A stretch of 64,000 bases of DNA from Streptacidiphilus sp. ASG 303. GTDB taxonomy: Bacteria > Actinomycetota > Actinomycetes > Streptomycetales > Streptomycetaceae. A program made the translations under genes and the position numbers. The notes below the pieces were generated by a model. The model was given only the letters and a program-made list of their open reading frames with translations. It did no database searches and had not been told where the DNA came from. Location of the stretch: assembly GCF_020991365.1 (NCBI RefSeq), contig NZ_JAJLRA010000015.1, forward strand, positions 62,001-126,000, in the 5' to 3' direction. Shown piece after piece: positions 14,536 to 26,226 of this stretch (its first letter is position 1; the number at the start of each line of letters is the position of its first letter).

Positions 14536-14751
14536 GGACAACCTCCAGATCGGGCGGCGCCGCGTCCGCGCACGGCCGGGTGACGCAGTCCACCCCACCC
14601 GGCGCCCCCGGCCCGCCGATTGCTCCGACCGGCGGCGTGGCAGAGCGCCCCGGGTTCACCCGTCCGGCCGACACGGCACGGATCCGGGGAGGCGGCAGGG
14701 CGCACCGGCGGGCGAGGATCGGCCGTGGGACCCGGAGAGGAGCGCAGCAGG

Positions 14752-14799
14752 ATGCGATCCACCCTTCCTGCAGGCCCCGACGGCCGGCGGCGCCCGTGA
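14752..14799 (+). CDS. 15-codon leader ORF coupled to phosphatase
   Basis: ATG at 14752 is preceded by a strong ribosome binding site (GGAGAGGAG, 14734-14742). It reads 15 codons and ends in a TGA that overlaps the GTG start of the phosphatase (GTGA). The phosphatase itself lacks a good binding site, so its translation may depend on this mini-ORF. The peptide is basic and unlike known families. It could instead be the true N-terminus if an indel exists here. Confidence 0.45.
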   Translation: MRSTLPAGPDGRRRP

Positions 14800-15917
14800 G
14801 GACGCCGCTGCGGCCCCGGGGCGGACGAAGGCGGCGTCCGCACGGACGGCGCGGCACGGCGCTCAGGGCCGTCCTCGCGACCCTGGTCGCGGTCACCGCC
14901 CTGGTCCTCGGCAGCAGCGTCCTGCTCGGCGTCGACGTCCGGCTGGCCCCGCTGCTCGCCTTCCTCCCCGCCTTCGCCGCGATCTTCGGCACGGTGGCGC
15001 AGACCGTGCTCGCCGCCGTCTGGGCGACCGCCGCCGTCTCGACCGCCTACAGCTACCTGTCGGACCGGAGCGGGGTGACCAGCCTGGTGGCCGCCGGCTT
15101 CTGCGCGGTGCTGGGCGGGCTCAGCGTGGAGGCGTGCCGCCGCCGCATCCACCGTGAGGAGGAGCTGGGGCGCCTGCGGTCCACCGCCGCAGCCCTCCAG
15201 CGGCAGATCCTGCGCCCGCTGCCGCTCCTGACCGACCGGCTGCTGGTCGGCGGCCTCTACGACCCGGTCGAGAGCGACATCCTGGTGGGGGGCGACATCT
15301 ACGAGGTGGTCGCCTCCCCGTACGGCAGCCGGGTGCTCATCGGCGACGTCCAGGGCAAGGGCCTCGCCGCGATCGGGACCGGCTTCGCGGTGCTCGGCGC
15401 CTTCCGGGAGGCGGCGTACCGCGAGCCGACGCTCACCGCCGTCGTGGACGCCCTGGAGGACGCCGTCGTCCGGCACAACACCTACGCCCTGGGGGAGGGC
15501 GAGCAGGAACGGTTCGTCACCGCCCTCGTGCTCGGCGTGGACGGCGCCACCTCCTGCCAGGCGGTCAACTGCGGGCACATCACGCCGCACCTGCTGGACG
15601 GGGACGGCGCCCGGACCGTGCCGCTCGGCGAGCCGGGCGTGCCCCTGGGGCTGGAGCGCCTGGCGGCGGTCCCCCGCACCGTCGCCTGGTTCGACTTCCC
15701 GCGGGACAGCGCCCTGCTGCTCTGCACCGACGGCGTCACCGAGGCCCGGGACCGGCACGGCTCCTTCTACCCGCTGACCGAACGCCTCGCGCGCTGGGCG
15801 GGCCGCAGCGTCCCGGAGGTGACCGAGGCGCTCCGGGACGACCTGGACAGCTACACGGCCGGGGTGCACCGCGACGACATCGCCGTCCTCCTCGTCCGCC
15901 GCACCGCCGCCGCCTGA
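14796..15917 (+). CDS. Membrane-anchored SpoIIE/PP2C phosphatase
   Basis: About 373 residues. Two to three hydrophobic segments lie in residues 20-105, then a SpoIIE-type Ser/Thr phosphatase domain (about 140-370). The domain carries VGGDIYE and IGDVQGKG (metal-binding aspartates) and LLCTDGVTEARD and HRDDIAVLLV (C-terminal metal site). There is no GAF or PAS domain, so a membrane signal is the likely input. Its role would be to dephosphorylate an anti-sigma antagonist, or another phosphoserine protein; the partner is not adjacent. The GTG start overlaps the stop of the 15-codon leader ORF. Confidence 0.8.
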   Translation: MRTPLRPRGGRRRRPHGRRGTALRAVLATLVAVTALVLGSSVLLGVDVRLAPLLAFLPAFAAIFGTVAQTVLAAVWATAAVSTAYSYLSDRSGVTSLVAAGFCAVLGGLSVEACRRRIHREEELGRLRSTAAALQRQILRPLPLLTDRLLVGGLYDPVESDILVGGDIYEVVASPYGSRVLIGDVQGKGLAAIGTGFAVLGAFREAAYREPTLTAVVDALEDAVVRHNTYALGEGEQERFVTALVLGVDGATSCQAVNCGHITPHLLDGDGARTVPLGEPGVPLGLERLAAVPRTVAWFDFPRDSALLLCTDGVTEARDRHGSFYPLTERLARWAGRSVPEVTEALRDDLDSYTAGVHRDDIAVLLVRRTAAA

Positions 15918-15940
15918 CCGCGCCGCCGTACCGTCGCCCT

Positions 15941-16037
15941 GCCGCCTGCCGCCTGCCGCCTGCCGCCTGCCGCCTGCCGCCTGCCGCCTGCCGCCTGCCG
16001 CCTGCCGCCTGCCGCCTGCCGCCTGCCGCCTGCCGCC
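15941..16037. repeat. 7-bp tandem repeat, about 14 copies
   Basis: The unit GCCGCCT is repeated without error for 97 bp (about 13.9 copies), in the gap between the phosphatase and the DHA2 exporter gene. A 7-bp unit would shift a frame, and no gene runs through it. Frames read across it on the minus strand give only a monotonous peptide and are not genes. Confidence 0.9.
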
Positions 16038-16192
16038 GACCCCGCCGTGCATCCGCCCCGGCCCTGCGGCCCGAACCCTGACGCCACCCCCGCCCCGCAT
16101 CCCGGCGACCAGCCGGGGCAGCAGACCAGGCAGGGAGCGGCGCCCGGCGTCCTGCGACCGGCGCCGCCCGACGACGCCCGAAAGGCCCACCC

Positions 16193-17758
16193 GTGAGCAC
16201 AGCATCCGCCGTCTTCGGCAGGCCCGGCGGCGGCGGCCGCCCGCAGGCCGCGCACCGCTGGCAGGCCCTCTCCGTCTGCCTGATCGCGGCCTTCATGACG
16301 CTGCTCGACGTCAGCATCGTCAACGTCGCCCTGCCGTCGATCCGGTCCGGCCTGCACACCTCCGAGAGCGCCCTGCAGTGGGTGCTCTCCGGGTACGCCC
16401 TCGCCTTCGGGCTGGTCCTCGTCCCCGCCGGGCGGCTCGGGGACGTCCGCAGCCGCCGGGCCGTCTTCATGGCGGGCCTCGCCCTCTTCACCGCCGCCAG
16501 CGCCCTGGTGGGCGCCGCGCAGAACGAGGTCTGGCTCGTGGGCGCCCGCCTGCTCCAGGGCCTGGCCGGCGGCCTGCTGATGCCGCAGGTGTCCGGGTTC
16601 GTCCAGCAGCTCTTCCGGGGCGAGGAGCGGGGCCGGGCCTTCGGCCTGCTCGGCGCCACCGTCGGCGTCTCCACCGCGATCGGGCCGCTGCTGGGCGGGC
16701 TGCTCATCCAGGCCTTCGGGGTGCAGGAGGGCTGGCGCTGGGTCTTCTACGTCAACCTGCCGATCGGCGTGGCCGCCCTGCCGGTCGCGTACCGGCTGCT
16801 GCCCGGCCCCCGGGCCCAGGGGGCCGGGGACGGCGCGGCCGTCCGGCGCGACCGCGGCTTCGACCCGGTGGGCGTCCTCCTGCTGGGCGCGGGCACGGTG
16901 GCGCTCCTGCTGCCCTTCGTCCAGGAGCAGCAGTGGCCCGGCGCCCGCAAGTGGCTGCTGCTGCCGGCCGCCGCCCTGCTGCTGGCCGCCTTCACGCTCT
17001 GGGAGCTCCGGTACGCGGGCCGCGCCGAGCCGCTGGTGGACCTGCGGCTGTTCCGCGCCCGGTCCTTCGCGCTGGGGGCGCTGCTCTCCCTGGTGTACTT
17101 CGCGGGCTTCACCGCGATCTTCTTCATGTTCACGCTCTACCTGCAGAACGGCCTGCACTACAGCGCCCTGCAGGCCGGACTCGCGATCACGCCCTTCGCG
17201 CTCGGCTCGGCCGTCGCGGCGGCGGCCGGCGGCCGGGTGGTCAACCGGATGGGCCGGCCGCTGGTGGCCTGGGGGCTGGTGCTGGTCGCGGTCGGGATGG
17301 CGGGCGCGGCCCTCGCCGTCCACCTGGTCCCGGGGCACTCGGCGGGCCTGGCGACCCTCGCCCCGCTGCTCCTCGCGGGTGTCGGCAGCGGGCTGGTCAT
17401 CACCCCGAACCAGACCCTCACGCTCAGCGAGGTCCCCGTGGTCCGGGCGGGCAGCGCGGGCGGCGTCCTGCAGACGGGCCAGCGCATCGGCTCGGCCGTG
17501 GGCATCGCCGCGGTCGGCTCCGTCTTCTTCGCCCACCTGAACTCCCACGGCGGCGACTGGGCCGGCGCCTTCCAGCGCGGCATCGCGGTGGCCACCGGGT
17601 TCGTGCTGCTGGCCCTGGTGGCCGCCCTCGTGGACGTGGCGGGCGGCCGCGGGCGCGCCGGGACCGGCCGGGTGCAGGGCCGGCCGCCGGGGGCGGGCGC
17701 GGAGCCGGAGCCGGGCGGCGCGGCCGCTGCTCCCGGCGGGGGGCGGCGTCTGGGCTGA
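16193..17758 (+). CDS. DHA2-type MFS drug exporter
   Basis: A 521-residue inner membrane protein with 14 predicted hydrophobic segments, as expected for the EmrB/QacA DHA2 subfamily of proton-driven drug exporters. Visible motifs: LLDVSIVNVALPSI in TM1, GRLGDVRSRR (motif A) in loop 2-3, ARLLQGLAGGLLMP (motif B region), and the motif-C-type GPLLGGLLI. The C-terminal tail is Gly/Pro-rich and disordered. The start is a GTG at 16193 with GAAAGG upstream. No TetR or MarR gene adjoins it, so regulation is not visible. Confidence 0.87.
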   Translation: MSTASAVFGRPGGGGRPQAAHRWQALSVCLIAAFMTLLDVSIVNVALPSIRSGLHTSESALQWVLSGYALAFGLVLVPAGRLGDVRSRRAVFMAGLALFTAASALVGAAQNEVWLVGARLLQGLAGGLLMPQVSGFVQQLFRGEERGRAFGLLGATVGVSTAIGPLLGGLLIQAFGVQEGWRWVFYVNLPIGVAALPVAYRLLPGPRAQGAGDGAAVRRDRGFDPVGVLLLGAGTVALLLPFVQEQQWPGARKWLLLPAAALLLAAFTLWELRYAGRAEPLVDLRLFRARSFALGALLSLVYFAGFTAIFFMFTLYLQNGLHYSALQAGLAITPFALGSAVAAAAGGRVVNRMGRPLVAWGLVLVAVGMAGAALAVHLVPGHSAGLATLAPLLLAGVGSGLVITPNQTLTLSEVPVVRAGSAGGVLQTGQRIGSAVGIAAVGSVFFAHLNSHGGDWAGAFQRGIAVATGFVLLALVAALVDVAGGRGRAGTGRVQGRPPGAGAEPEPGGAAAAPGGGRRLG

Positions 17759-17855
17759 TCAGGGCGTACGGGCGGGCTATCCGGGTGAGAGTGCGTGCGC
17801 CGCGCGCTGACGCGGCGTCGGATCGGTTAACCAGTAGGCGACCACTTCTTCACCT

Positions 17856-17867
17856 GAGGAGCTCCTC
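17856..17867 (+). promoter_or_regulatory. Palindrome overlapping chaplin ribosome binding site
   Basis: GAGGAGCTCCTC is a perfect 12-bp palindrome whose left half is the Shine-Dalgarno sequence of the chaplin gene (ATG two bases after it). If it folds in mRNA or pairs between transcripts it would hide the binding site, giving a simple translational control. Confidence 0.45.
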
Positions 17868-17868
17868 G

Positions 17869-18252
17869 ATGAACAAGATCACCAAGGCTGCCGTCCTGGC
17901 CGCCGTCGCCGGCTGCCTGACCGCCACCGCTGCGGGCACCGCCAGCGCCTCCGGCGCCCAGGGTGCGGCCGTCGGCTCCCCCGGCGTCCTGTCGGGCAAC
18001 CTGGTCCAGATCCCGATCGACGTCCCGATCAACGTCTGCGGCCTGGGCGTCAACGTCCTCGCGGCGCTCAACCCGGTCGGCGGCAACACCTGCATCAACG
18101 CCGAGGGCGGCTTCGGCCGCGGCTACGGCCGTGAGGGCTTCGGCCGCGGCTACGGCCACGGCTTCGGCGGCGAGTACGGCGAGCGCGGCCGCGGCGGCCA
18201 CGAGGGCGGCGAGCGCGGCCACGGCGGCCACGAGGGCGGCAAGGACTGGTAG
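17869..18252 (+). CDS. Chaplin with Gly/His-rich C-terminal tail
   Basis: A 127-residue secreted protein. Residues 1-28 form a Sec signal peptide (Ala-rich, ending ASA). Residues about 33-76 form one chaplin domain, with GVLSGNLVQIPIDVPINVCG and GNTC supplying the two conserved cysteines that form a disulphide. Chaplins assemble into amyloid-like films that let aerial hyphae breach the surface. Short chaplins normally end here and long ones end in a sortase signal. This protein instead has a 45-residue tail rich in Gly, His, Arg and Glu with GYG and GGHEGG repeats and no LAxTG. It is a single gene, with a strong terminator after it. Confidence 0.88.
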   Translation: MNKITKAAVLAAVAGCLTATAAGTASASGAQGAAVGSPGVLSGNLVQIPIDVPINVCGLGVNVLAALNPVGGNTCINAEGGFGRGYGREGFGRGYGHGFGGEYGERGRGGHEGGERGHGGHEGGKDW

Positions 18253-18595
18253 GTCCTCCGTCCCTCACGCACCACCACCCCCACCCCCCGGCCCGGCGCG
18301 CTGTCGGCGCGGCAGCACGGTTCGCCGGTGGGTACGGCTCCCGTCCGAGCACCTGCTCGGGCGGGAGCCGCCTTTTCGCCGTCTTTTCGCCGCCTCTGCG
18401 CCGCGCCTTCGCGGATCCCGCCACGGGCCTCTCCGCAGGCCCGTTCCCGGTCCCGGCGGCCCGGCGGGGTTTCGGCCGGCTCCCTGTGGACACGCGACCC
18501 TCGGACAGCGCGGCGGCGGCCCGCACGCGCTGCGACGGATCCGACGCGCTGCGGCGGGCCGCCCGGCGACCGTTCGACGACGGAAGGCCGGTCCC
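18253..18595. other. Intergenic region with terminator
   Basis: A 343-bp gap between the chaplin and DUF2267 genes. It contains the strong chaplin terminator (18335-18376) and presumably the promoter of the DUF2267/archease/rtcB group. No coding frame is supported. Confidence 0.6.
18335..18376 (+). terminator. Strong intrinsic terminator after chaplin
   Basis: CGGCTCCCG (18335-18343) pairs with CGGGAGCCG (18362-18370), and an inner CCGAG/CTCGG stem closes the loop. A TTTT tract follows at 18373-18376. This is the most classical Rho-independent terminator in the window. Confidence 0.85.
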
Positions 18596-19033
18596 ATGCA
18601 CCACGACGAGTTCATCGGCCAGGTCCGGGCGCGCGGCGCGCTGCCGGACCGCGCGGCGGCGGAGCGCGCGGCCCGCGCCACCCTGGAGACCCTCGGGGAA
18701 CGGGTGCCCGTCGGCCTCGCCGAGCACATGGCCGCCCAGCTGCCGCCCTCCCTCGGGCAGTACCTGCTGCGCGCCGCCGTCGGACACGGCGCCTCGCGGG
18801 ACGAGCGGCGGCGGGGCGAGCGGTTCGACCTGACGACCTTCGCCGGGCGCATCGCCTGGCGGTCCGGCACCGACGAGGAGGTGGCCCTCCGCGAGGCGGG
18901 CGCCGTCCTCGACGTCCTCGACGCCTCCCTCTCGCCCGAGCTGATGCGGAAGCTCGGCCACGTCCTCCCGCACGACATCCGCGAACTGCTGCCCGAGGCA
19001 CGGACGCAGGACGCGCCGTGGTCCACGGCCTGA
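18596..19033 (+). CDS. DUF2267 family protein
   Basis: A 145-residue, mainly helical cytosolic protein. DUF2267 features are clear: the start [17 protein letters not shown], the [23 protein letters not shown] block, and the end [22 protein letters not shown]. The family is widespread, often near stress genes, with no defined biochemical role. Its 3' end overlaps the start of the archease frame by 16 nt, suggesting translational coupling with the archease-rtcB pair downstream. Confidence 0.85.
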
Positions 19034-19521
19034 CCCCGCCCGCCGGACCTCCGGCCCCTGGGCCTCCCCCCGGCTCCCCGTCGCCCGGGCCTCCCGCCGG
19101 GCGGCGCCGGCCGGCCGGGCACCGGACCGTGCCGCACACCGCCGACCTGCGCGTCGAGGCGTGGGCACCCGACCGCGAGGGCTGCCTCGCCGAGGCCGTC
19201 GCCGGACTCGTCGACGCCTTCGCCGACCGCGCGGCGGCCCGGCCGCACCGCACCGCCTCCCTCCGCCTCCCTCCGGCCCCCGACGAGGACCTGCTGGTGG
19301 CCCTGCTGGAGGAGGTGGTCTACCGCCTCGACGTGGCGGGCGAACTGCCGGTCGCGGTGGAGGCCGCCCCCGTCCCCGGCGGCGGGCTGGACGTGCGGCT
19401 GGCCATGGCCGGCACCGGGGAGGTCGAGGCCGTCGGCGCCCTGCCCAAGGCGGTGTCGCTGCACGGGCTGCGGATGGGCGCGGGGGACGGCTGGTCCTGC
19501 TCCTTCACGGTGGACGTCTGA
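19018..19521 (+). CDS. Archease (RtcB ligase activator)
   Basis: Archease promotes guanylylation and multiple turnover of the RNA ligase RtcB, whose gene follows. The protein has the family start [17 protein letters not shown] with the conserved HTAD, the FADR and [14 protein letters not shown] blocks, and the C-terminal end [10 protein letters not shown]...SFTVDV, whose last aspartate is in the metal-site position. GTG at 19018 gives 167 residues with a Pro-rich leader; GTG at 19129 gives 130 residues, nearer the usual family length, but would cut off part of the conserved start. The 5' end overlaps the DUF2267 gene. Confidence 0.82.
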
Positions 19522-19637
19522 CCGCCGCCGGATCCCGCCGCCCCCCGCCGGGCCCTGCCGCGCCCGCCGACCCCCGCCCCGGGTCCCGGCCGGACCCGCC
19601 GTTTCGGGCCCGCCCCCGCGGGTACCCCGGGACCGCC

Positions 19638-21050
19638 ATGGACCTCACCCAGACCGGCCCCTACGAGTTCCGGGTCGAGCAGCGCGGCGGGATGCGCGTC
19701 CCGGGCGTGGTGTTCGCCTCTCGGGACCTCCTCCGCGACGCCGGGCAGTCGCTGGAGCAGGTCCGCAACGTCGCCACCCTGCCGGGGATCGTCGAGGCCT
19801 CGTACGCCATGCCCGACGTGCACTGGGGGTACGGCTTCCCCATCGGCGGCGTCGCCGCCACCGACCCCGCCCGCGGCGGCGTGGTCTCCCCGGGCGGTGT
19901 CGGCTTCGACATCTCCTGCGGCGTCCGGCTGCTCGCCGCCGACACCACCGCCCGTGAGCTGGCGCCCGTCCTCGGCAGCCTGATGGACGCCCTCGACCCG
20001 GCCGTCCCGCGCGGCATGACCCGCGGCGCGGTCTGGACCCCGCCGGACCGCGGCGAGCTGCTGCGCCTGCTCACCGGCGGCGCCCGCCGCGCCCTGGAGC
20101 GCACCCACGGCGAACCGGGCGACCTGGAGCGCTGCGAGGACGGCGGCGCGGTCGGCGGCGCCGACCCCGCCCAGGTCAGCGACCGGGCCCTGGAGCGCGG
20201 GATGCAGCAGGTCGGCAGCCTCGGCTCCGGCAACCACTTCCTGGAGGTGCAGCGCGTCGCCGAGCTGTACGACGAGGCGACCGCCGCCGTCTTCGGCCTC
20301 GGTCCCGACCAGGTCTGCGTGATGATCCACTGCGGGTCGCGGGGGCTGGGCCACCAGATCTGCGGCGACCACGTGCGGCGGATGGAGCAGGCCATGCCCC
20401 GGTACGGGATCCGGGTGCCGGACCGGCAGCTCGCCTGCGCCCCCGTGGAGTCGCCCGAGGGTCGCGCCTACCTCGGCGCGATGGCCGCCGCGGCCAACTA
20501 CGGCCGCGCCAACCGCCATATGCTCGCCGAGGCCGCCCGCCGGGTCTTCTCCGCCGTCGCGGACGCCCGGCTCTCCCTGGTCTACGACGTCTCGCACAAC
20601 CTCGCCAAGCTGGAGGAGCACGCCGTCGGCGGCGTCCCGACCCGGCTGTGCGTCCACCGCAAGGGCGCCACCCGCGCGCTGCCGCCCGGCCACCCCGACC
20701 TGCCGCCGGACCTGCGGCCGGTCGGGCAGCCCGTCCTCATCCCCGGCACCATGGGCACGGCCTCCCACGTCCTCACCGGGGTGGCGGGAAGCCGCGCCTT
20801 CCACTCCGCCTGCCACGGCGCCGGCCGGGTGCAGAGCCGCCACCAGGCCGCCCGCGGGGTCAGCGGCCGGGAGCTGCGCGACCGGATGGAGGCGGCGGGC
20901 ATCGCCGTGCGGCCCTCCTCCTGGCGCGGACTGGCCGAGGAGCACCCGGGGGCGTACAAGGACGTCGACGCCGTGGTGGCGGCGGCCGCCGGCGCCGGGC
21001 TGTGCCGCCCGGTCGCCCGGCTCGTCCCGCTCGGCGTCGTCAAGGGCTGA
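19638..21050 (+). CDS. rtcB: RNA-splicing ligase RtcB
   Basis: A 470-residue enzyme joining RNA 2',3'-cyclic phosphate (or 3'-phosphate) ends to 5'-OH ends with GTP and Mn2+. Conserved blocks: [17 protein letters not shown] near residue 56, [14 protein letters not shown] with the metal cysteine near residue 97, [10 protein letters not shown] near residue 197, [10 protein letters not shown] near residue 234, and the SACHGAGR histidine near residue 396 that carries the GMP adduct. Length is typical. The archease gene lies 116 bp upstream on the same strand, an expected functional pair used in RNA repair or tRNA healing. Confidence 0.95.
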
Positions 21051-21131
21051 GCCCCGGACCCCGGCGGCCCGCCCCCGGCGCCGTGTCGCGGCGCCGCCCC
21101 TGCACCCGGCGCGGCGAGGCCGTCCGCCATC

Positions 21132-21226
21132 CTGCCCCCGGCGCCCGGACCTGCCCCCGGCGCCCGGACCCGCCCCCGGCGCCCGGACCCGCCCCCGGCG
21201 CCCGGACCCGCCCCCGGCGCCCGGCC
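21132..21226. repeat. 19-bp tandem repeat, 5 copies
   Basis: Five head-to-tail 19-bp units (the first CTGCCCCCGGCGCCCGGAC; copies 3-5 differ by one base) fill the gap between rtcB and the SRPBCC gene. The unit is not a multiple of three. Each unit holds a small CGGGCGCCGG-like dyad. Confidence 0.85.
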
Positions 21227-21309
21227 CGCGCACCCCGGCCCCGCCCCGGCGCCCCGCCGCCCGGCGCGGCCCCGCCCCCGGCGCGGCCCGCCGGGCCTAT
21301 GCTCGCGCC

Positions 21310-21744
21310 GTGGCCCCCTTCCGCATCGAACGCCTCACCGCCCTGCCGCCCGACGAGGCCTGGCGCCGCCTCACCGACTGGGAGCGGCACGCCGCCCACG
21401 TGCCCATGACCCGGATCACCGTCACCACCCCGCCGCCCAACCGGGCCGGCACCGCCTTCACCGCCCGCACCGCCGTGGGCGGCGTAGGGTTCGACGACCC
21501 GATGGAGGTCGTCGCCTGGGAGCCGCCCGCCGCCGGCCGGCCCGGCCGCTGCCGCCTGGAGAAGCGCGGCCGCACGGTCACCGGCTGGGCCGAGATCGAG
21601 GTGGCACCGCACGGCGCCGGCTCCCGGGTCGTGTGGACCGAGGAGGCCCGCGTCCGCGGCGTGCCCGCCCTCTTCGACGCGCCGTCCCGCTGGGCGGGCC
21701 GCCTCCTCTTCGGCCGCGCCGTCGACGGCCTCCTGCGCGGCTAG
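21310..21744 (+). CDS. SRPBCC family protein
   Basis: A 144-residue cytosolic protein with the helix-grip (START/Bet v1-like) pattern: RIERLTALPPDEAWRRLTDW at the start, a beta-rich middle with MEVVAWEPP and GRCRLEKRGRTVTGWAEIEV, then a long C-terminal helix (SRWAGRLLFGRAVDGLLR). Such proteins bind hydrophobic ligands in a deep pocket; the ligand here cannot be inferred. Start: GTG at 21310, with no strong ribosome binding site. It is followed about 100 bp later by a DUF6891 gene on the same strand. Confidence 0.82.
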   Translation: MAPFRIERLTALPPDEAWRRLTDWERHAAHVPMTRITVTTPPPNRAGTAFTARTAVGGVGFDDPMEVVAWEPPAAGRPGRCRLEKRGRTVTGWAEIEVAPHGAGSRVVWTEEARVRGVPALFDAPSRWAGRLLFGRAVDGLLRG

Positions 21745-21847
21745 CCGGGCTCTCCGCCGGCCGGCCGCCGGGCCGCACCGCCGGAGTCCCGCCGGAGTCC
21801 CCGGCAGGGGCCGGCGGCCCCCGGGGCCGTCGGCGGCCCGTGCCAGA

Positions 21848-22711
21848 ATGCGCGCCATGCTCGAGATCACCGTGCGCACGGAGGACGGACGGCGGCACGT
21901 CCGGCCGACCGCGCAGGAACTCGCCGGCCTGGTCCGCCGGATCGGCGGCGCGGGCGACCGGTTCCTGGTCGTCCAGCCGGTCCCCGACCTCCCCGACGTC
22001 TTCGTCCAGGTGTGGCACGAGGCCGGGGGCGGCTACACCCTGGAGCACCGCGCCGGGGCGCCCGACCGCCACGTCGCCGCGACGCTCGACGGGCCAGAGC
22101 CGGTGGCCGCCGCGATGACCGCCTGGGCCCGCCGCGATGACGGCTGGGACGCCGGACCGGACTGGTCCCCGCTCGACCTGGGGCCCGTCCCGCCGCCCCC
22201 GCCGCCGCTCGACCTCGACGACGACGACCGCAGGCGGCTCGAGGAGCACGTCCGCGCCGTGCTCGTCGGCGGCTACGCCACGCGGGCGCAGCTGGCGGAG
22301 GCGGCCGAGGACCACCTCGTCTCCGGCGACCGCCGCCCGGTCTCCCGCGAACAGGCGCAGCACCTGGCCGACCGGATGTGGCTGGAGCGCGTCGAGGAGC
22401 AGGCGGCCTGGGAGGGCGAGACGGACCCGGAGCGGCTCACCCGGGCCTTCGCGGCGCTGGAGGAGGCGGGCATCACGGCACGGGAGCACTTCACCTGCTG
22501 CCGCACCTGCGGCGGCGCGGAGATCGGTGCCGCCGGCGCGCCGGACGCCCGCGGCTTCGTCTCCTTCCACTCCCAGTGCACCAGGGGTGCTGCGGCGGGG
22601 CACGGGCTGACGCTGCTGTACGGCGGGTTCGACGGATCCCGGGAGACGACGGCGGCCGTCGGCCGGGAGGTCGCCGAGGCCTTCGGGGCGGTCGGCCTGC
22701 CGGTCGAGTAG
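21848..22711 (+). CDS. DUF6891 family protein
   Basis: A 287-residue cytosolic protein. The N-terminal 110 residues are a beta-rich domain (EITVRTEDGRRHVRPTAQEL; VFVQVWHEAGGGYTLEHRAG). A Pro/Asp-rich linker follows, then a helical C-terminal domain. That domain contains FTCCRTCGGAEIG near residue 215 and SFHSQCTRGAA near residue 240, a Cys cluster (CC-x2-C ... C) that could bind metal or be redox active. This C-terminal layout is the DUF6891 family pattern; function is unknown. An ATG at 21857 is an equally possible start, since neither has a clear ribosome binding site. Confidence 0.75.
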   Translation: MRAMLEITVRTEDGRRHVRPTAQELAGLVRRIGGAGDRFLVVQPVPDLPDVFVQVWHEAGGGYTLEHRAGAPDRHVAATLDGPEPVAAAMTAWARRDDGWDAGPDWSPLDLGPVPPPPPPLDLDDDDRRRLEEHVRAVLVGGYATRAQLAEAAEDHLVSGDRRPVSREQAQHLADRMWLERVEEQAAWEGETDPERLTRAFAALEEAGITAREHFTCCRTCGGAEIGAAGAPDARGFVSFHSQCTRGAAAGHGLTLLYGGFDGSRETTAAVGREVAEAFGAVGLPVE

Positions 22712-22895
22712 GACGGCGATCCCGGGCGTGCCCTCACGGTCACGCCGCTGGACTGGCGCAGGAGGCTCGTCGGGTAGGGCCCCGCCGCCCGGCCGGCGCG
22801 GCCCGTCGCGCGGCGGCCGGGCCGTCCCGCCCGCCGCCCGCGGACGCGCCACGCACACCTGCCGCACATTCGCGGGGGACACCCGGAAGGGCGTA

Positions 22896-22914
22896 CCGTT
22901 GCCCTTGGTAACGG
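22896..22914. promoter_or_regulatory. Inverted repeat before photosensor-like operon
   Basis: CCGTTGCC and GGTAACGG form an inverted repeat (8 bp, one G-T type mismatch) around a CTT centre. It lies 43 bp before the ATG of the mini-ORF that leads the phosphatase / B12 / STAS operon. The sequence is less G+C-rich than its surroundings. It may be an operator or part of a promoter. Confidence 0.4.
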
Positions 22915-22957
22915 ATCTGCGACCGGAGACGGACCGACGACAGGCGGAGGTGGAGAG

Positions 22958-23035
22958 ATGGGGAACAGCACGGCGGAGGCGGCGGCCCGCCCCTTCCTCG
23001 CGTCCCGCGCCACCGCCCCGGGTCGGCGCCGGTGA
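22958..23035 (+). CDS. 25-codon leader ORF coupled to phosphatase
   Basis: ATG at 22958 follows a strong GGAGG site; 25 codons end in a TGA that overlaps the GTG start of the phosphatase (GTGA). The peptide starts MGNSTAEAAARPFLASRA and is not recognised. As at 14752, the downstream phosphatase gene lacks its own good ribosome binding site, so coupling through re-initiation is likely. Confidence 0.45.
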   Translation: MGNSTAEAAARPFLASRATAPGRRR

Positions 23036-24714
23036 CGGAGCACACGGAGAGGACCGCCCAGCCGGCCCCCGGCGACCTCAGGGAGGCCGGAGGCCCCGCC
23101 CGCGGCGCCCGGCGCCCCGCCCCGGCGGCGCCCCCCGCCCCCGCTGCACCGCAGCAGGCCCCGGCGCACCCCGAGGAGGGCCTGCTGGACCTCGTGGACC
23201 AGGCCGTGGTCGTCTGCGACGCCGACGGCGTGGTCCTGCGCACCAACGCCCCCGCCGGGCGGCTCTTCCCCCGCCTGCGGGTGGGGGAGGTGCTCGGCGC
23301 CCCCGCCGCCGGCCCCCTCGCGGCAGCTGCGGGCGACGGCTCCGACGCCTTCGACGCCGACTTCCTCGGCCGGCGGCTCAGCGGCCGCCGCACCGCCTGG
23401 GACGGCCGCACCGTGTGGCTGGTCCGCGACGACAGCGCCGTCCGCGAGCGGGAGGACGCCCTGCTGGCCGAGCGGTCCCGGTCGGCCTTCCTCGCCCAGG
23501 CCGGCAAGCAGCTCGGCGCCTCCCTCCACCACGGCCGCACCGTCCGCACCCTGGTCCGCACGGCCGTCCCCGTGCTCGCCGACAGCGCCGTCGTGGTGCT
23601 GCCGCTGCGCGGCAACCGCACCACCTGGCACCGCTTCGGCCCGCACACCCCCGAGCCCGTCGCCGGGCGGATCGCGGCCGCCGTGCTGGAGGGCGTGCCG
23701 CGGGTCGCCGACGCCCTGTCCGGCCTGGAGCCCGAGCCCACCGCCTGCCCCTGGCAGGAGCTGGAGGACCTCGGCGTCGTCCCGCAGCAGCTCGGCGAGG
23801 GCGGCGAGGCGCTCGTCATCCCGCTGCCGGGCAACGGCGTCCCCGCCGGCGCCCTCGTCCTGGCCCGCGGCCCGGACCGCGAGGGGTTCACCGCGGTCGA
23901 CACCGAGCTGGTGCGCCAGTTCGCCTCCCGCGCCGGCATCGCGCTGGCCGCGTCCGCCTTCTACACGCAGCAGTCCCACACCGCCTCCGTGCTGCAGTCG
24001 GGCCTGGAGCCCGCCGCGCTGCCCGCCGCCGACGGCGTGCGGCTGGGCGCCGCCTACCGCCCGGCGCGCGAGGCCCTGCGGATCGGCGGCGACTTCTACC
24101 AGGTCGACCCCCGCCCCGGCGGCGGCCTGGACTTCTTCTTCGGCGACGTCTGCGGCAAGGGTGTGGAGGCGGCGGTCCTCACCGGCCGGGTGCGGCAGAG
24201 CCTGCGCACCCTGGCCCTGGTGGAGATCCGGCCGGTCCGCGTCCTGCACCTGCTCAACCAGGCGCTGCTGGACGCGGGGGAGGCCCGCTTCACCACCCTG
24301 GTGACCGGCTCCGCCCGCTCCGCCGCCGACGGCGGCCTCGACGTGGTCCTGGCCGGCGGCGGCCACCTGCCGCCGCTGGTGCTGCGCGACGACGGCCGGG
24401 TCGAGCCGGTGCAGATCGGCGGCACGCTGGTCGGCGCCCTGCCCGACCCGATCTTCGACCAGGCCGAGATCCACCTCGCCCCCGGGGAGCTGGTGCTGCT
24501 GTACAGCGACGGCGTCACCGAGGCCCGAGGCGGCCCGGCCGGGTACGAGATGTACGGGGAACGGCGGCTGGTCCGGGACCTCGGCACCTGCCGGGGCATG
24601 CCCGCCGGCGCCGTCGCCCAGCGCGTCGAGCTCCTCGCCACCGAGTGGCTCGGCGGCCGCCCCCACGACGACATCGCCGTTCTCGTCCTCCAGGCGCCCG
24701 CCCGCACCGACTGA
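23032..24714 (+). CDS. PAS/GAF SpoIIE-type phosphatase (RsbU-like)
   Basis: A 560-residue cytosolic protein. Residues 1-48 are an Ala/Pro linker. A PAS-like domain follows at about 50-105 (LLDLVDQAVVVCDADGVVLR), then a GAF domain at about 150-310. The SpoIIE/PP2C phosphatase domain is at about 330-555, with RIGGDFYQ, GDVCGKGVEAA, LYSDGVTEARGG and HDDIAVLVL. It should dephosphorylate a STAS anti-sigma antagonist; a STAS gene is the third member of this operon. The B12-binding protein gene follows 22 bp downstream. The GAF/PAS inputs imply a second signal besides B12. Confidence 0.87.
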   Translation: MTEHTERTAQPAPGDLREAGGPARGARRPAPAAPPAPAAPQQAPAHPEEGLLDLVDQAVVVCDADGVVLRTNAPAGRLFPRLRVGEVLGAPAAGPLAAAAGDGSDAFDADFLGRRLSGRRTAWDGRTVWLVRDDSAVREREDALLAERSRSAFLAQAGKQLGASLHHGRTVRTLVRTAVPVLADSAVVVLPLRGNRTTWHRFGPHTPEPVAGRIAAAVLEGVPRVADALSGLEPEPTACPWQELEDLGVVPQQLGEGGEALVIPLPGNGVPAGALVLARGPDREGFTAVDTELVRQFASRAGIALAASAFYTQQSHTASVLQSGLEPAALPAADGVRLGAAYRPAREALRIGGDFYQVDPRPGGGLDFFFGDVCGKGVEAAVLTGRVRQSLRTLALVEIRPVRVLHLLNQALLDAGEARFTTLVTGSARSAADGGLDVVLAGGGHLPPLVLRDDGRVEPVQIGGTLVGALPDPIFDQAEIHLAPGELVLLYSDGVTEARGGPAGYEMYGERRLVRDLGTCRGMPAGAVAQRVELLATEWLGGRPHDDIAVLVLQAPARTD

Positions 24715-24736: not shown

Positions 24737-25795
24737 GTGACCACCGCCACCCGACCCGCCCTCGACCCCGACGTCCGGTCCGCCTACGACGCGCACCTCG
24801 CCCGCGCCGACGAGGACGCAGCCGCCGCCCTCGTGCTCGGCCTGCTCGACGCCGGCTGGGCCCCGGAGCGGATCCTGCTGGACCTGGTCGCACCCGCCCA
24901 GGTCGCGGTGGGGGAGCGGTGGGCCTCCGCCGAGTGGAGCGTCGCCCAGGAGCACGCCGCGACCCACGTCAGCGAGCAGACCGTCGCCGCGCTCGCCGCC
25001 GCCACCCGCCGCCCCGCCGAGGAGGGCGCCGGGAGCATCGTGGTGGCCTGCGTCGACGGCGAGTGGCACGCCCTGCCCGCCCGCATCCTCGCCGAGGTGC
25101 TGCGGCTGCGCGGCTTCCGGGTCACCTTCCTCGGCGCCCACGTCCCCGCCCCCCACCTGGTCTCCTACCTGCACCAGCACGGCCCGGACCTGGCGGCCCT
25201 GTCCTGCATGCTCCCGGTGCGCCTGCCCCGCGCCCACCGCATGGTCGAGGCCGCCCGCCTCGCCGGGGTGCCGGTGCTCGCGGGCGGACCCGGCTTCGGG
25301 CCCGACGGGTCCTGGGCGGCCGCCCTCGGCGCGGACCTGTACGCGTCCGACGCCGCGGGCGCCGCCGACCTGCTGCAGCGTGCCTGGCCGCCGCCCTTCG
25401 ACGGCGCGGTCTCGCTGCCGCACCTCGCCGACGAGGAGTACGCACAGCTCGTCCGGCGCCGTCCCGAACTGCTGCGGCACCTCGTCGACACCCTGCACGA
25501 GCGGTTCCCCGCCATGCGCGACTACAGCGACCACCAGCACGAGGCCACTCTGGAGGACCTCGGCCACCTGCTGGACTTCCTCACGGCGGGCGTCTTCGTC
25601 GACGACCCCCGCGTCCTCACCGGCTTCCTCGACTTCAGCGCGCACATCCTCGCCTCCCGGCGGGTGCCCCCCGCCGGCCTCCACCTGGCCGTGGACGCGC
25701 TCACCGGCCCCCTGCACGACTTCCCGAGGACCCTTGCGCACCTCACCGCCGGGAAGGAGGGCCTGGAGGAGGCCGGACACGCCCACTCCCGCTGA
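24737..25795 (+). CDS. CarH-like B12-binding sensor without DNA-binding domain
   Basis: A 352-residue soluble protein. Residues about 10-92 are a four-helix cap carrying W62-x9-E72-H73, the W-x9-EH signature of adenosylcobalamin photoreceptors (CarH/LitR type). Residues about 97-215 form the Rossmann-like B12 domain, with E108-x-H110, where the histidine is the expected lower cobalt ligand; the usual following glycine is proline. The MerR-type DNA-binding domain of CarH is missing. Residues about 220-352 form an extra helical domain of unknown role. It lies between a phosphatase gene and a STAS gene, so it probably passes a light or B12 signal by protein contact. This is inferred, not shown. 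Confidence 0.8.
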   Translation: MTTATRPALDPDVRSAYDAHLARADEDAAAALVLGLLDAGWAPERILLDLVAPAQVAVGERWASAEWSVAQEHAATHVSEQTVAALAAATRRPAEEGAGSIVVACVDGEWHALPARILAEVLRLRGFRVTFLGAHVPAPHLVSYLHQHGPDLAALSCMLPVRLPRAHRMVEAARLAGVPVLAGGPGFGPDGSWAAALGADLYASDAAGAADLLQRAWPPPFDGAVSLPHLADEEYAQLVRRRPELLRHLVDTLHERFPAMRDYSDHQHEATLEDLGHLLDFLTAGVFVDDPRVLTGFLDFSAHILASRRVPPAGLHLAVDALTGPLHDFPRTLAHLTAGKEGLEEAGHAHSR

Positions 25796-25824: not shown

Positions 25825-26226
25825 TTGCACGCCCCCGAACACCGGCCCGCACTCGACATCACCGAGGCGCGCCGCGACGACGGCACCGTCCACCTCGTCC
25901 TGGAGGGCGAGCTGGACTACGACACCTGCGAGGACCTCGACCACGCCCTCGGCCGGGCGCTCACCCCCGGCACGCACCGCCTCGTCGTCGACCTCGGCGG
26001 CGTCACCTTCATGGACTCCTCCGGCATCGTGTGCCTGCTGCGCGCCCGCCGTGCGGCCCCGGCGCCCGGCGGCCTCCGCGTCGTCAACGCCGCCCGCCAG
26101 CCGCTGGAGCGCCTCTCCATCGCGGGCGTCCTCGACCACCTCACCCGCACGGCCGAGGACGAGGACCCCGCCTCCGCCGCCGGATCCGCCTCGCTGGCGG
26201 ACTCCGCGCCGTCCGGCACCGGCTGA
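25825..26226 (+). CDS. STAS-domain anti-sigma factor antagonist
   Basis: About 133 residues; TTG start at 25825 with AAGGAG 9 nt upstream. A STAS domain of the RsbV/SpoIIAA type runs from about residue 8 to 110. HLVLEGELDYDTCEDL is the N-terminal strand-helix block, and FMDSSGIVCLLRARR holds the serine that the cognate anti-sigma kinase phosphorylates. When dephosphorylated by an RsbU-like phosphatase such proteins bind the anti-sigma factor and free sigma. It is the last gene of the phosphatase-B12 sensor operon. No anti-sigma kinase or sigma gene is in the window. Confidence 0.86.
   Translation: MHAPEHRPALDITEARRDDGTVHLVLEGELDYDTCEDLDHALGRALTPGTHRLVVDLGGVTFMDSSGIVCLLRARRAAPAPGGLRVVNAARQPLERLSIAGVLDHLTRTAEDEDPASAAGSASLADSAPSGTG

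Follow-up and report, generated by a model that had tools for sequence, protein, structure and literature searches.

A short leader ORF that probably delivers ribosomes to a SpoIIE-type phosphatase gene of Streptacidiphilus sp. ASG 303

Two phosphatase genes start at the stop codons of short ORFs

In the genome of Streptacidiphilus sp. ASG 303, two genes for SpoIIE/PP2C-type phosphatases begin with a GTG codon that is overlapped by the TGA stop codon of a short, out-of-frame open reading frame (ORF). Both lie in a stretch of 64,000 nucleotides (contig NZ_JAJLRA010000015.1, positions 62,001 to 126,000; hereafter, the window), and they are designated phosphatase 1 and phosphatase 2, preceded by mini-ORF 1 and mini-ORF 2, respectively (Table 1). 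A first-pass annotation of the window had taken the two pairs for a single design and had suggested either a translational control shared by both phosphatases or misplaced N termini. Its description of the two mini-ORFs, namely the coordinates, the lengths of 15 and 25 codons, the strong Shine-Dalgarno (SD) sites, the TGA-GTG overlaps, and the weak SD sites of the phosphatases themselves, was exact in every point.

Table 1. Features of the two mini-ORF/phosphatase pairs and their surroundings (coordinates within the window)
Feature	Coordinates	Strand	Remarks
SD site of mini-ORF 1	14734..14742	+	GGAGAGGAG; duplex energy -12.7 kcal/mol
Mini-ORF 1	14752..14799	+	ATG14752, 15 codons, TGA14797-14799; anatomy like that of mini-ORF 2, not conserved
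Phosphatase 1, SpoIIE/PP2C, N-terminal hydrophobic stretch	14796..15917	+	PF07228, 4e-37
TACCGT, possible -10 element of the phosphatase 2 promoter	22894..22899	+	64 nt 5' of mini-ORF 2; putative promoter role
SD site of mini-ORF 2	22946..22955	+	GGAGGTGGAG; duplex energy -14.2 kcal/mol
Mini-ORF 2	22958..23035	+	ATG22958, 25 codons, TGA23033-23035; putative ribosome-delivering leader ORF
Phosphatase 2, GAF + SpoIIE/PP2C	23032..24714	+	PF07228, 1.6e-40; GAF PF01590 barely over the cut-off
B12-binding-domain protein, conserved partner 3' of phosphatase 2	24737..25795	+	PF02310, PF02607

SD strength was expressed as the duplex energy with an assumed anti-SD sequence of the 16S rRNA tail. As listed in Table 1, both mini-ORFs are led by strong sites, and the phosphatase starts GTG14796 and GTG23032 have sites of their own of only -5.0 and -4.3 kcal/mol, compared with a median of -7.4 kcal/mol over 879 called gene starts of the same genome. 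Both genes are preceded by a short out-of-frame ORF that has a credible SD, share a four-nucleotide NTGA stop/start overlap with it (GTGA at phosphatase 2), and have a weak SD of their own. The start of phosphatase 2 is also predicted to be structurally closed, with an opening energy of 23.5 kcal/mol; at phosphatase 1, the gene start is predicted to be closed (26.8 kcal/mol) and that of mini-ORF 1 open (14.4 kcal/mol). For reference, the median was 15.4 kcal/mol over 300 sampled gene starts and 19.4 kcal/mol over 300 internal positions. PF07228 scored 128.5 and 139.6 bits in the two phosphatases against a curated cut-off of 25, and the hydrophobic stretch of phosphatase 1 was read by eye from the translation.

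Phosphatase 2 homologues occur in two states

The complete phosphatase 2 protein, searched over 61 genomes, returned only the window's own match (E <= 1e-100), and homologues were therefore sought with a part of the protein that lacks the SpoIIE domain; the last search of this kind added no further locus. Orthologues proved rare, being found in four other genomes among 394 of the family and, within one large genus, in 17 of 392 genomes, 3 of which had already been drawn with the family; the five closest named relatives, which were added to the set, are Streptomyces. Of the 79 loci in the search that gave these relatives, 12 were covered: L032 to L036 served as orthologues, L037, L038, L040, L041, L042, and L059 as outgroups, and L039 was inspected. 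L116 and L122 were dropped as duplicates, their numbers being identical to those of L036 and L034, and five Streptomyces plasmid records below 60% identity were left out. The 21 scored loci were sorted by layout first and placed on a tree afterwards.

In group A (n = 10: the window, L032 to L036, L112, L115, L123, and L129), the SD of the phosphatase start itself is weak (-3.2 to -7.3 kcal/mol), and an out-of-frame ORF, with its best-SD start 23 to 35 codons upstream, ends in a stop codon that overlaps the phosphatase start. The SD of this mini-ORF was -7.9 kcal/mol or lower in 8 of the 10 loci, namely, besides the window, L112 (-17.4), L036 (-17.1), L034 and L115 (both -11.6), L032 (-11.5), L033 (-9.6), and L035 (-7.9). 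The overlap is NTGA in nine loci and 8 nt long, in another relative frame, in L032. In group B (n = 11), a strong SD (-10.9 to -12.7 kcal/mol) instead lies directly 5' of the phosphatase start; a further locus, L126, belongs to group B by sequence and is absent from the SD comparison.

Predicted opening energies of the phosphatase start were 13.5 to 27.0 kcal/mol (mean 21.2) in group A (n = 9) versus 11.8 to 17.8 kcal/mol (mean 15.0) in group B (n = 11), and the mini-ORF starts of group A are predicted to be open (11.9 to 16.9 kcal/mol). Rank tests between the groups gave P = 0.00014 for the own SD and P = 0.003 for the opening energy, values that are too small because of the relatedness of the loci and the sorting by layout. 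In a tree of 27 proteins, group B formed one clade (100/100), and the nine group A rows fell into four deep lineages that meet at a polytomy: the window; L032; the pair L036 and L112; and L033, L034, L035, L115, and L123. In 38% of the bootstrap trees, a branch separated group A from all other rows. L129 was scored for SD strength and left out of the tree and the opening energies.

In the comparison with related genomes that the first-pass annotation had proposed, the layout recurred at phosphatase 2, where both a mini-ORF of 23 to 35 codons and the overlap return, and not in the 37 phosphatase 1 homologues examined. A fusion of mini-ORF and phosphatase in one frame, which would have pointed to a sequence error, was seen in none of the phosphatase 2 homologues. 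Nor does the N terminus of phosphatase 2 appear misplaced: GTG23032 is the sole start codon upstream in its frame, and a Val or Met start followed by Thr is common to 18 of the 21 scored homologues.

In 23 of 23 loci, from both groups, phosphatase 2 is followed by a gene for a B12-binding-domain protein. This conserved pair may join a sensor to its phosphatase; in the window, a STAS-domain gene comes next (25825-26226). The L129 homologue looks decayed: its matched open frame is short, and the phosphatase frame holds a stop codon shortly before the start.

The layout of mini-ORF 2, and not its peptide, appears to be kept

By eye, no likeness is apparent among mini-peptides from different lineages. 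Within the mini-ORF stretch, length differences were nonetheless multiples of 3 in four of four cases (L033, +3; L123/L129, -3; L036/L112, 6 and 3), and the stretch was less diverged than the region from -300 to -100 in five of five pairs. The comparison supports a selection that acts on the layout of the phosphatase 2 start region and not on the encoded peptide. At such divergence, a leader under drift should have lost its SD, frame, and overlap; selection for ribosome delivery is the simplest reading. The SD and start of group A mini-ORFs were also aligned with the SD and phosphatase start of group B; 5 of 63 pairs (L036 with L117 and L127; L033, L034, and L112 with L127) scored above all 300 shuffles, and most pairs did not. 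The two states would be most simply explained by one change, in either direction, between coupled and direct initiation at the root of group B.

Taken together, these comparisons support translational coupling at phosphatase 2 well, and mini-ORF 2 is probably a translated leader ORF that delivers ribosomes to phosphatase 2 by termination-reinitiation. A ribosome would load at the strong SD of mini-ORF 2; its passage over the 25 codons would, judging from the predicted opening energies, open the G+C-rich structure that covers the phosphatase 2 start; and, by analogy with the mycobacterial uPPE2-PPE2 pair discussed below, it would stop at the TGA of GTGA and restart at the overlapping GTG.

Coding selection on the mini-peptides was considered as well and is supported neither by the substitution pattern nor by the codon scores.

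Frequency of the layout in the genome and points in favor of chance

An alternative is that the layout is accidental: in a G+C-rich genome, in which NTGA starts and open frames are frequent, SD-led mini-ORFs would overlap gene starts by accident and the phosphatases would initiate by themselves. To gauge this background, genes were called in 1.18 Mb of the 7.0-Mb draft genome (200 contigs), giving 900 genes with 879 usable starts. The gene caller picks starts by codon score, so that some starts are wrong and the counts are rough. NTGA starts numbered 301 of the 879, and for 219 of these no called gene ends at the overlap. A weak own SD (-5 kcal/mol or higher) is not rare among the 219, occurring in 63, and 7 combine it with a mini-ORF SD of -7 kcal/mol or lower; the strongest mini-ORF sites among these 7 are those of the window's two mini-ORFs. 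A less strict rule (20 to 36 codons, ends overlapping to within a few bases, mini-ORF SD of -7.9 kcal/mol or lower, own SD of -7.3 kcal/mol or higher), under which mini-ORF 1 was counted with an earlier in-frame GTG as its start, selected 8 of 753 gene starts, including the window's two, and 4 of the 8 have an opening energy of at least 19 kcal/mol. The design is thus low in frequency, at about 1% of called gene starts. A hydrogenase-like gene on contig C114 is among both the 7 and the 8 and likely has a wrong start.

Several observations weigh against a role of mini-ORF 2 in ribosome delivery. Genome-wide, NTGA starts did not show the layout significantly more often than did non-NTGA starts scored in the same way: the proportions were 7 of 63 versus 16 of 186 at a mini-ORF SD cut-off of -7 kcal/mol (P = 0.62), 7 of 63 versus 9 of 186 at -8 (P = 0.13), and 2 of 63 versus 0 of 186 at -12 (P = 0.06). 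The pattern alone could for this reason be chance, and the case for mini-ORF 2 as something else rests on its homologues. Among these, the loci within a lineage are not independent. The NTGA overlap follows from the Thr second codon, and 10 of the 11 group B starts are likewise NTGA; 8 of the 11 carry overlapping short ORFs, with SD sites never better than -6.7 kcal/mol; hence, it is the place of the strong SD, and not the overlap alone, that marks the coupled form. Within group A, the mini-ORF SD is weak in L123 (-5.7 kcal/mol) and L129 (-7.2 kcal/mol), the best-SD start of L112 is TTG, an in-frame GTG 18 nt downstream could be the real start of L032, and the phosphatase start of L036 (13.5 kcal/mol) is predicted to be as open as its mini-ORF start (14.4 kcal/mol). 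Substitutions in the mini-ORFs are not concentrated at third positions, and in several pairs they agree better with the phosphatase frame. Of the three sense frames, the mini-ORF frame scored best for codon usage in only five of nine loci (the window, L032, L034, L036, and L112), and it was coding-like only for the window and L036. L033 differs in length by 2 nt just upstream of the compared stretch. Finally, the predicted fold of the phosphatase 2 leader (22935-23095) was no better than that of shuffled sequences (z = 0.69), and that of 14730-14860 around mini-ORF 1 was slightly better (z = -1.56).

Nevertheless, chance would not readily make the phosphatase 2 layout recur in four deep lineages, nor make SD strength and predicted start accessibility switch together with the layout, and we consider it an unlikely explanation.

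The first-pass annotation had further proposed a control shared by the phosphatases, and this part was not borne out. The genome has 50 SpoIIE matches, of which 43 were sampled and all paired with called genes. Only the two genes in the window had an own SD of -5 kcal/mol or higher together with a mini-ORF SD of -8 kcal/mol or lower, and the layout was found in none of the 41 other sampled SpoIIE genes, the closest being one on contig C119 (own SD, -6.2 kcal/mol; 12-codon mini-ORF with an SD of -7.8 kcal/mol). A general control of SpoIIE genes was rejected on this count. The layout does occur at an oxidoreductase-like gene, so identified by eye, on contig C88 (L185:12008-13060, - strand), in which the TGA of a 24-codon mini-ORF overlaps an ATG (mini-ORF SD, -14.3 kcal/mol; own SD, -5.5 kcal/mol; opening energy, 29.7 kcal/mol). 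With only two of 43 SpoIIE genes involved, the design appears occasional and no mark of phosphatases.

Putative promoter of phosphatase 2 and a sensing role of the leader

A TANNGT motif lies 34 to 73 nt 5' of the mini-ORF start in nine of nine group A loci examined, compared with 53 of 753 called gene starts at -75 to -34, a range picked after the data had been seen. In group B, TANNNT was present within 150 nt in 1 of 11 loci. The position of TANNGT fits a transcript that would begin just ahead of the mini-ORF, and a scan for the sigma-70 consensus found no match.

Its position ahead of a regulatory gene would also suit a mini-ORF that encodes a sensing leader peptide, that is, an attenuator or stalling upstream ORF (uORF) that regulates the phosphatase through its amino acids. 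The marks of an attenuator were not seen, however, as the translations show no extended repeat of a single codon and neither leader has a terminator-like site. The window contains no Rfam family at the gathering score, and the peptide is not conserved between lineages, all of which makes a sensing peptide very unlikely.

Known parallels and implications of a replaceable leader

Leader ORFs coupled to a following gene are a known kind of system. According to passages of a study of Mycobacterium tuberculosis (PMC11260477), PPE2 has no SD, its start is overlapped (AUGA) by an out-of-frame uORF, and its translation depends on this uORF, for the most part through termination-reinitiation; the study reports hundreds of NUGA overlaps in that species. 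Mini-ORF 2 and phosphatase 2 resemble uPPE2-PPE2, as far as these passages describe it, in the out-of-frame short ORF with its own SD, the 4-nt stop/start overlap, and the downstream gene without a good SD. Unlike the leader described here, that of uPPE2-PPE2 holds a B12 riboswitch, the gene family is a different one, and the dependence of the downstream gene on its uORF was shown there and is drawn by analogy here. The same passages report a minor fused product, which raises the question of whether stop suppression and a frame shift at the overlap could yield a fused leader-phosphatase protein. Such a fusion is highly improbable here: the main uPPE2-PPE2 product came from reinitiation, and L032, if ATG is its start, has another relative frame than the other loci.

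Passages of a review (PMC12548453) describe uORFs that only deliver ribosomes to a coupled gene, and mini-ORF 2 would be like them in serving the translation of the next gene and not its own peptide. The main text of that review has no match for "Streptomyces," and its passages describe no lineage that swaps a coupled for a direct form. Overlapping gene pairs that are coupled by termination-reinitiation share the ATGA-type overlap, as described in parts of PMC6728339; the second gene of those pairs typically has an SD, whereas here a first ORF of 15 to 35 codons precedes a gene whose own site is weak. Parts of another report (PMC9094748) describe pervasive translation of short ORFs in M. tuberculosis, mostly without codon-level selection. 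Among the matches listed in searches of the open-access literature on uORFs and coupling in Streptomyces, in mycobacteria, and for SpoIIE/PP2C, the present case was not reported.

A wider proposal, which we put forward tentatively, would be that the leader ORF is a replaceable translation device at the phosphatase 2/B12-binding pair, present in four lineages without peptide conservation, with one clade using a direct SD. If true, this would be a natural experiment on the worth of termination-reinitiation for a regulatory phosphatase, a conceivable benefit being the throttling or de-noising of phosphatase dosage relative to its partner, and the natural coupled and uncoupled versions of phosphatase 2 would make the cost and benefit of ribosome delivery by a uORF measurable. 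It further suggests that selection can act on nothing but the position of a leader ORF, and codon-based tests for small ORFs would miss such ORFs.

Mini-ORF 1 and the homologues of phosphatase 1

For phosphatase 1, 42 homologous loci were collected, 5 of which were duplicates; the remaining 37 are a part of all matches, one search alone having matched in 86 of 394 genomes, from which 20 loci were taken. The mini-ORF layout was found in 0 of the 37 distinct homologues examined, which favors chance at this gene. Of these, 32 were scored as direct, under a broad rule that accepted any nearby start with an SD of -6.5 kcal/mol or lower and counted inner starts, and 5 were unclear, among them L018 (own SD, -3.7 kcal/mol; overlapping 36-codon ORF with an SD of -7.1 kcal/mol). 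Because mini-ORF 1 is not conserved, the two mini-ORFs do not represent a control shared by the two phosphatases; of the translational control first proposed, the coupling at phosphatase 2 is the part that comparison supports.

The nearest homologue, L002, comes from the same genus (71% identity), and its start corresponds in position to GTG14796, which argues against a misplaced N terminus of phosphatase 1 as well. The L002 start has a direct SD of -11.7 kcal/mol, no overlap, and an opening energy of 16.5 kcal/mol. An alternative, which concerns phosphatase 1 only, is that mini-ORF 1 is the displaced true N terminus, separated by a real one-base change or by an error in the draft sequence. 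One base would indeed join the two frames, and the start region of mini-ORF 1 aligns with that of L002 (score 30; 14 of 2,000 shuffles as high), which leads its phosphatase directly. However, the segment from -60 to +20 of GTG14796, which contains the mini-ORF 1 start, scores 28 against L002 (26 of 2,000). From GTG14796 to the hydrophobic stretch, the length equals that of L002, and fusion to the mini-ORF would lengthen the protein by about 15 residues. Mini-ORF 1 is also not coding-like in its own frame (codon score, -8.6). The first 90 nt of the phosphatase 1 gene align with L002 no better than shuffles do at the DNA level (676 of 2,000) and match at the protein level. A displaced N terminus is accordingly possible, although doubtful.

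From the comparison, mini-ORF 1 would be either a lineage-specific feature, a frame change, or a sequence error; the original start region of phosphatase 1 may have been shifted into another frame and its role assumed by the overlapping GTG. Its anatomy still predicts coupling in this genome, where mini-ORF 1 would work like mini-ORF 2.

Two further observations concern phosphatase 1 and its relatives. In the genome of homologue L206, four phosphatase 1 matches of equal score are spaced 5,094 bases apart (G360:C1:532278-548033), as a tandem amplification or an assembly artifact would be. In the window, a perfect array of the 7-base unit CCTGCCG (14.3 copies, 15938-16037) lies just past the phosphatase 1 stop codon.

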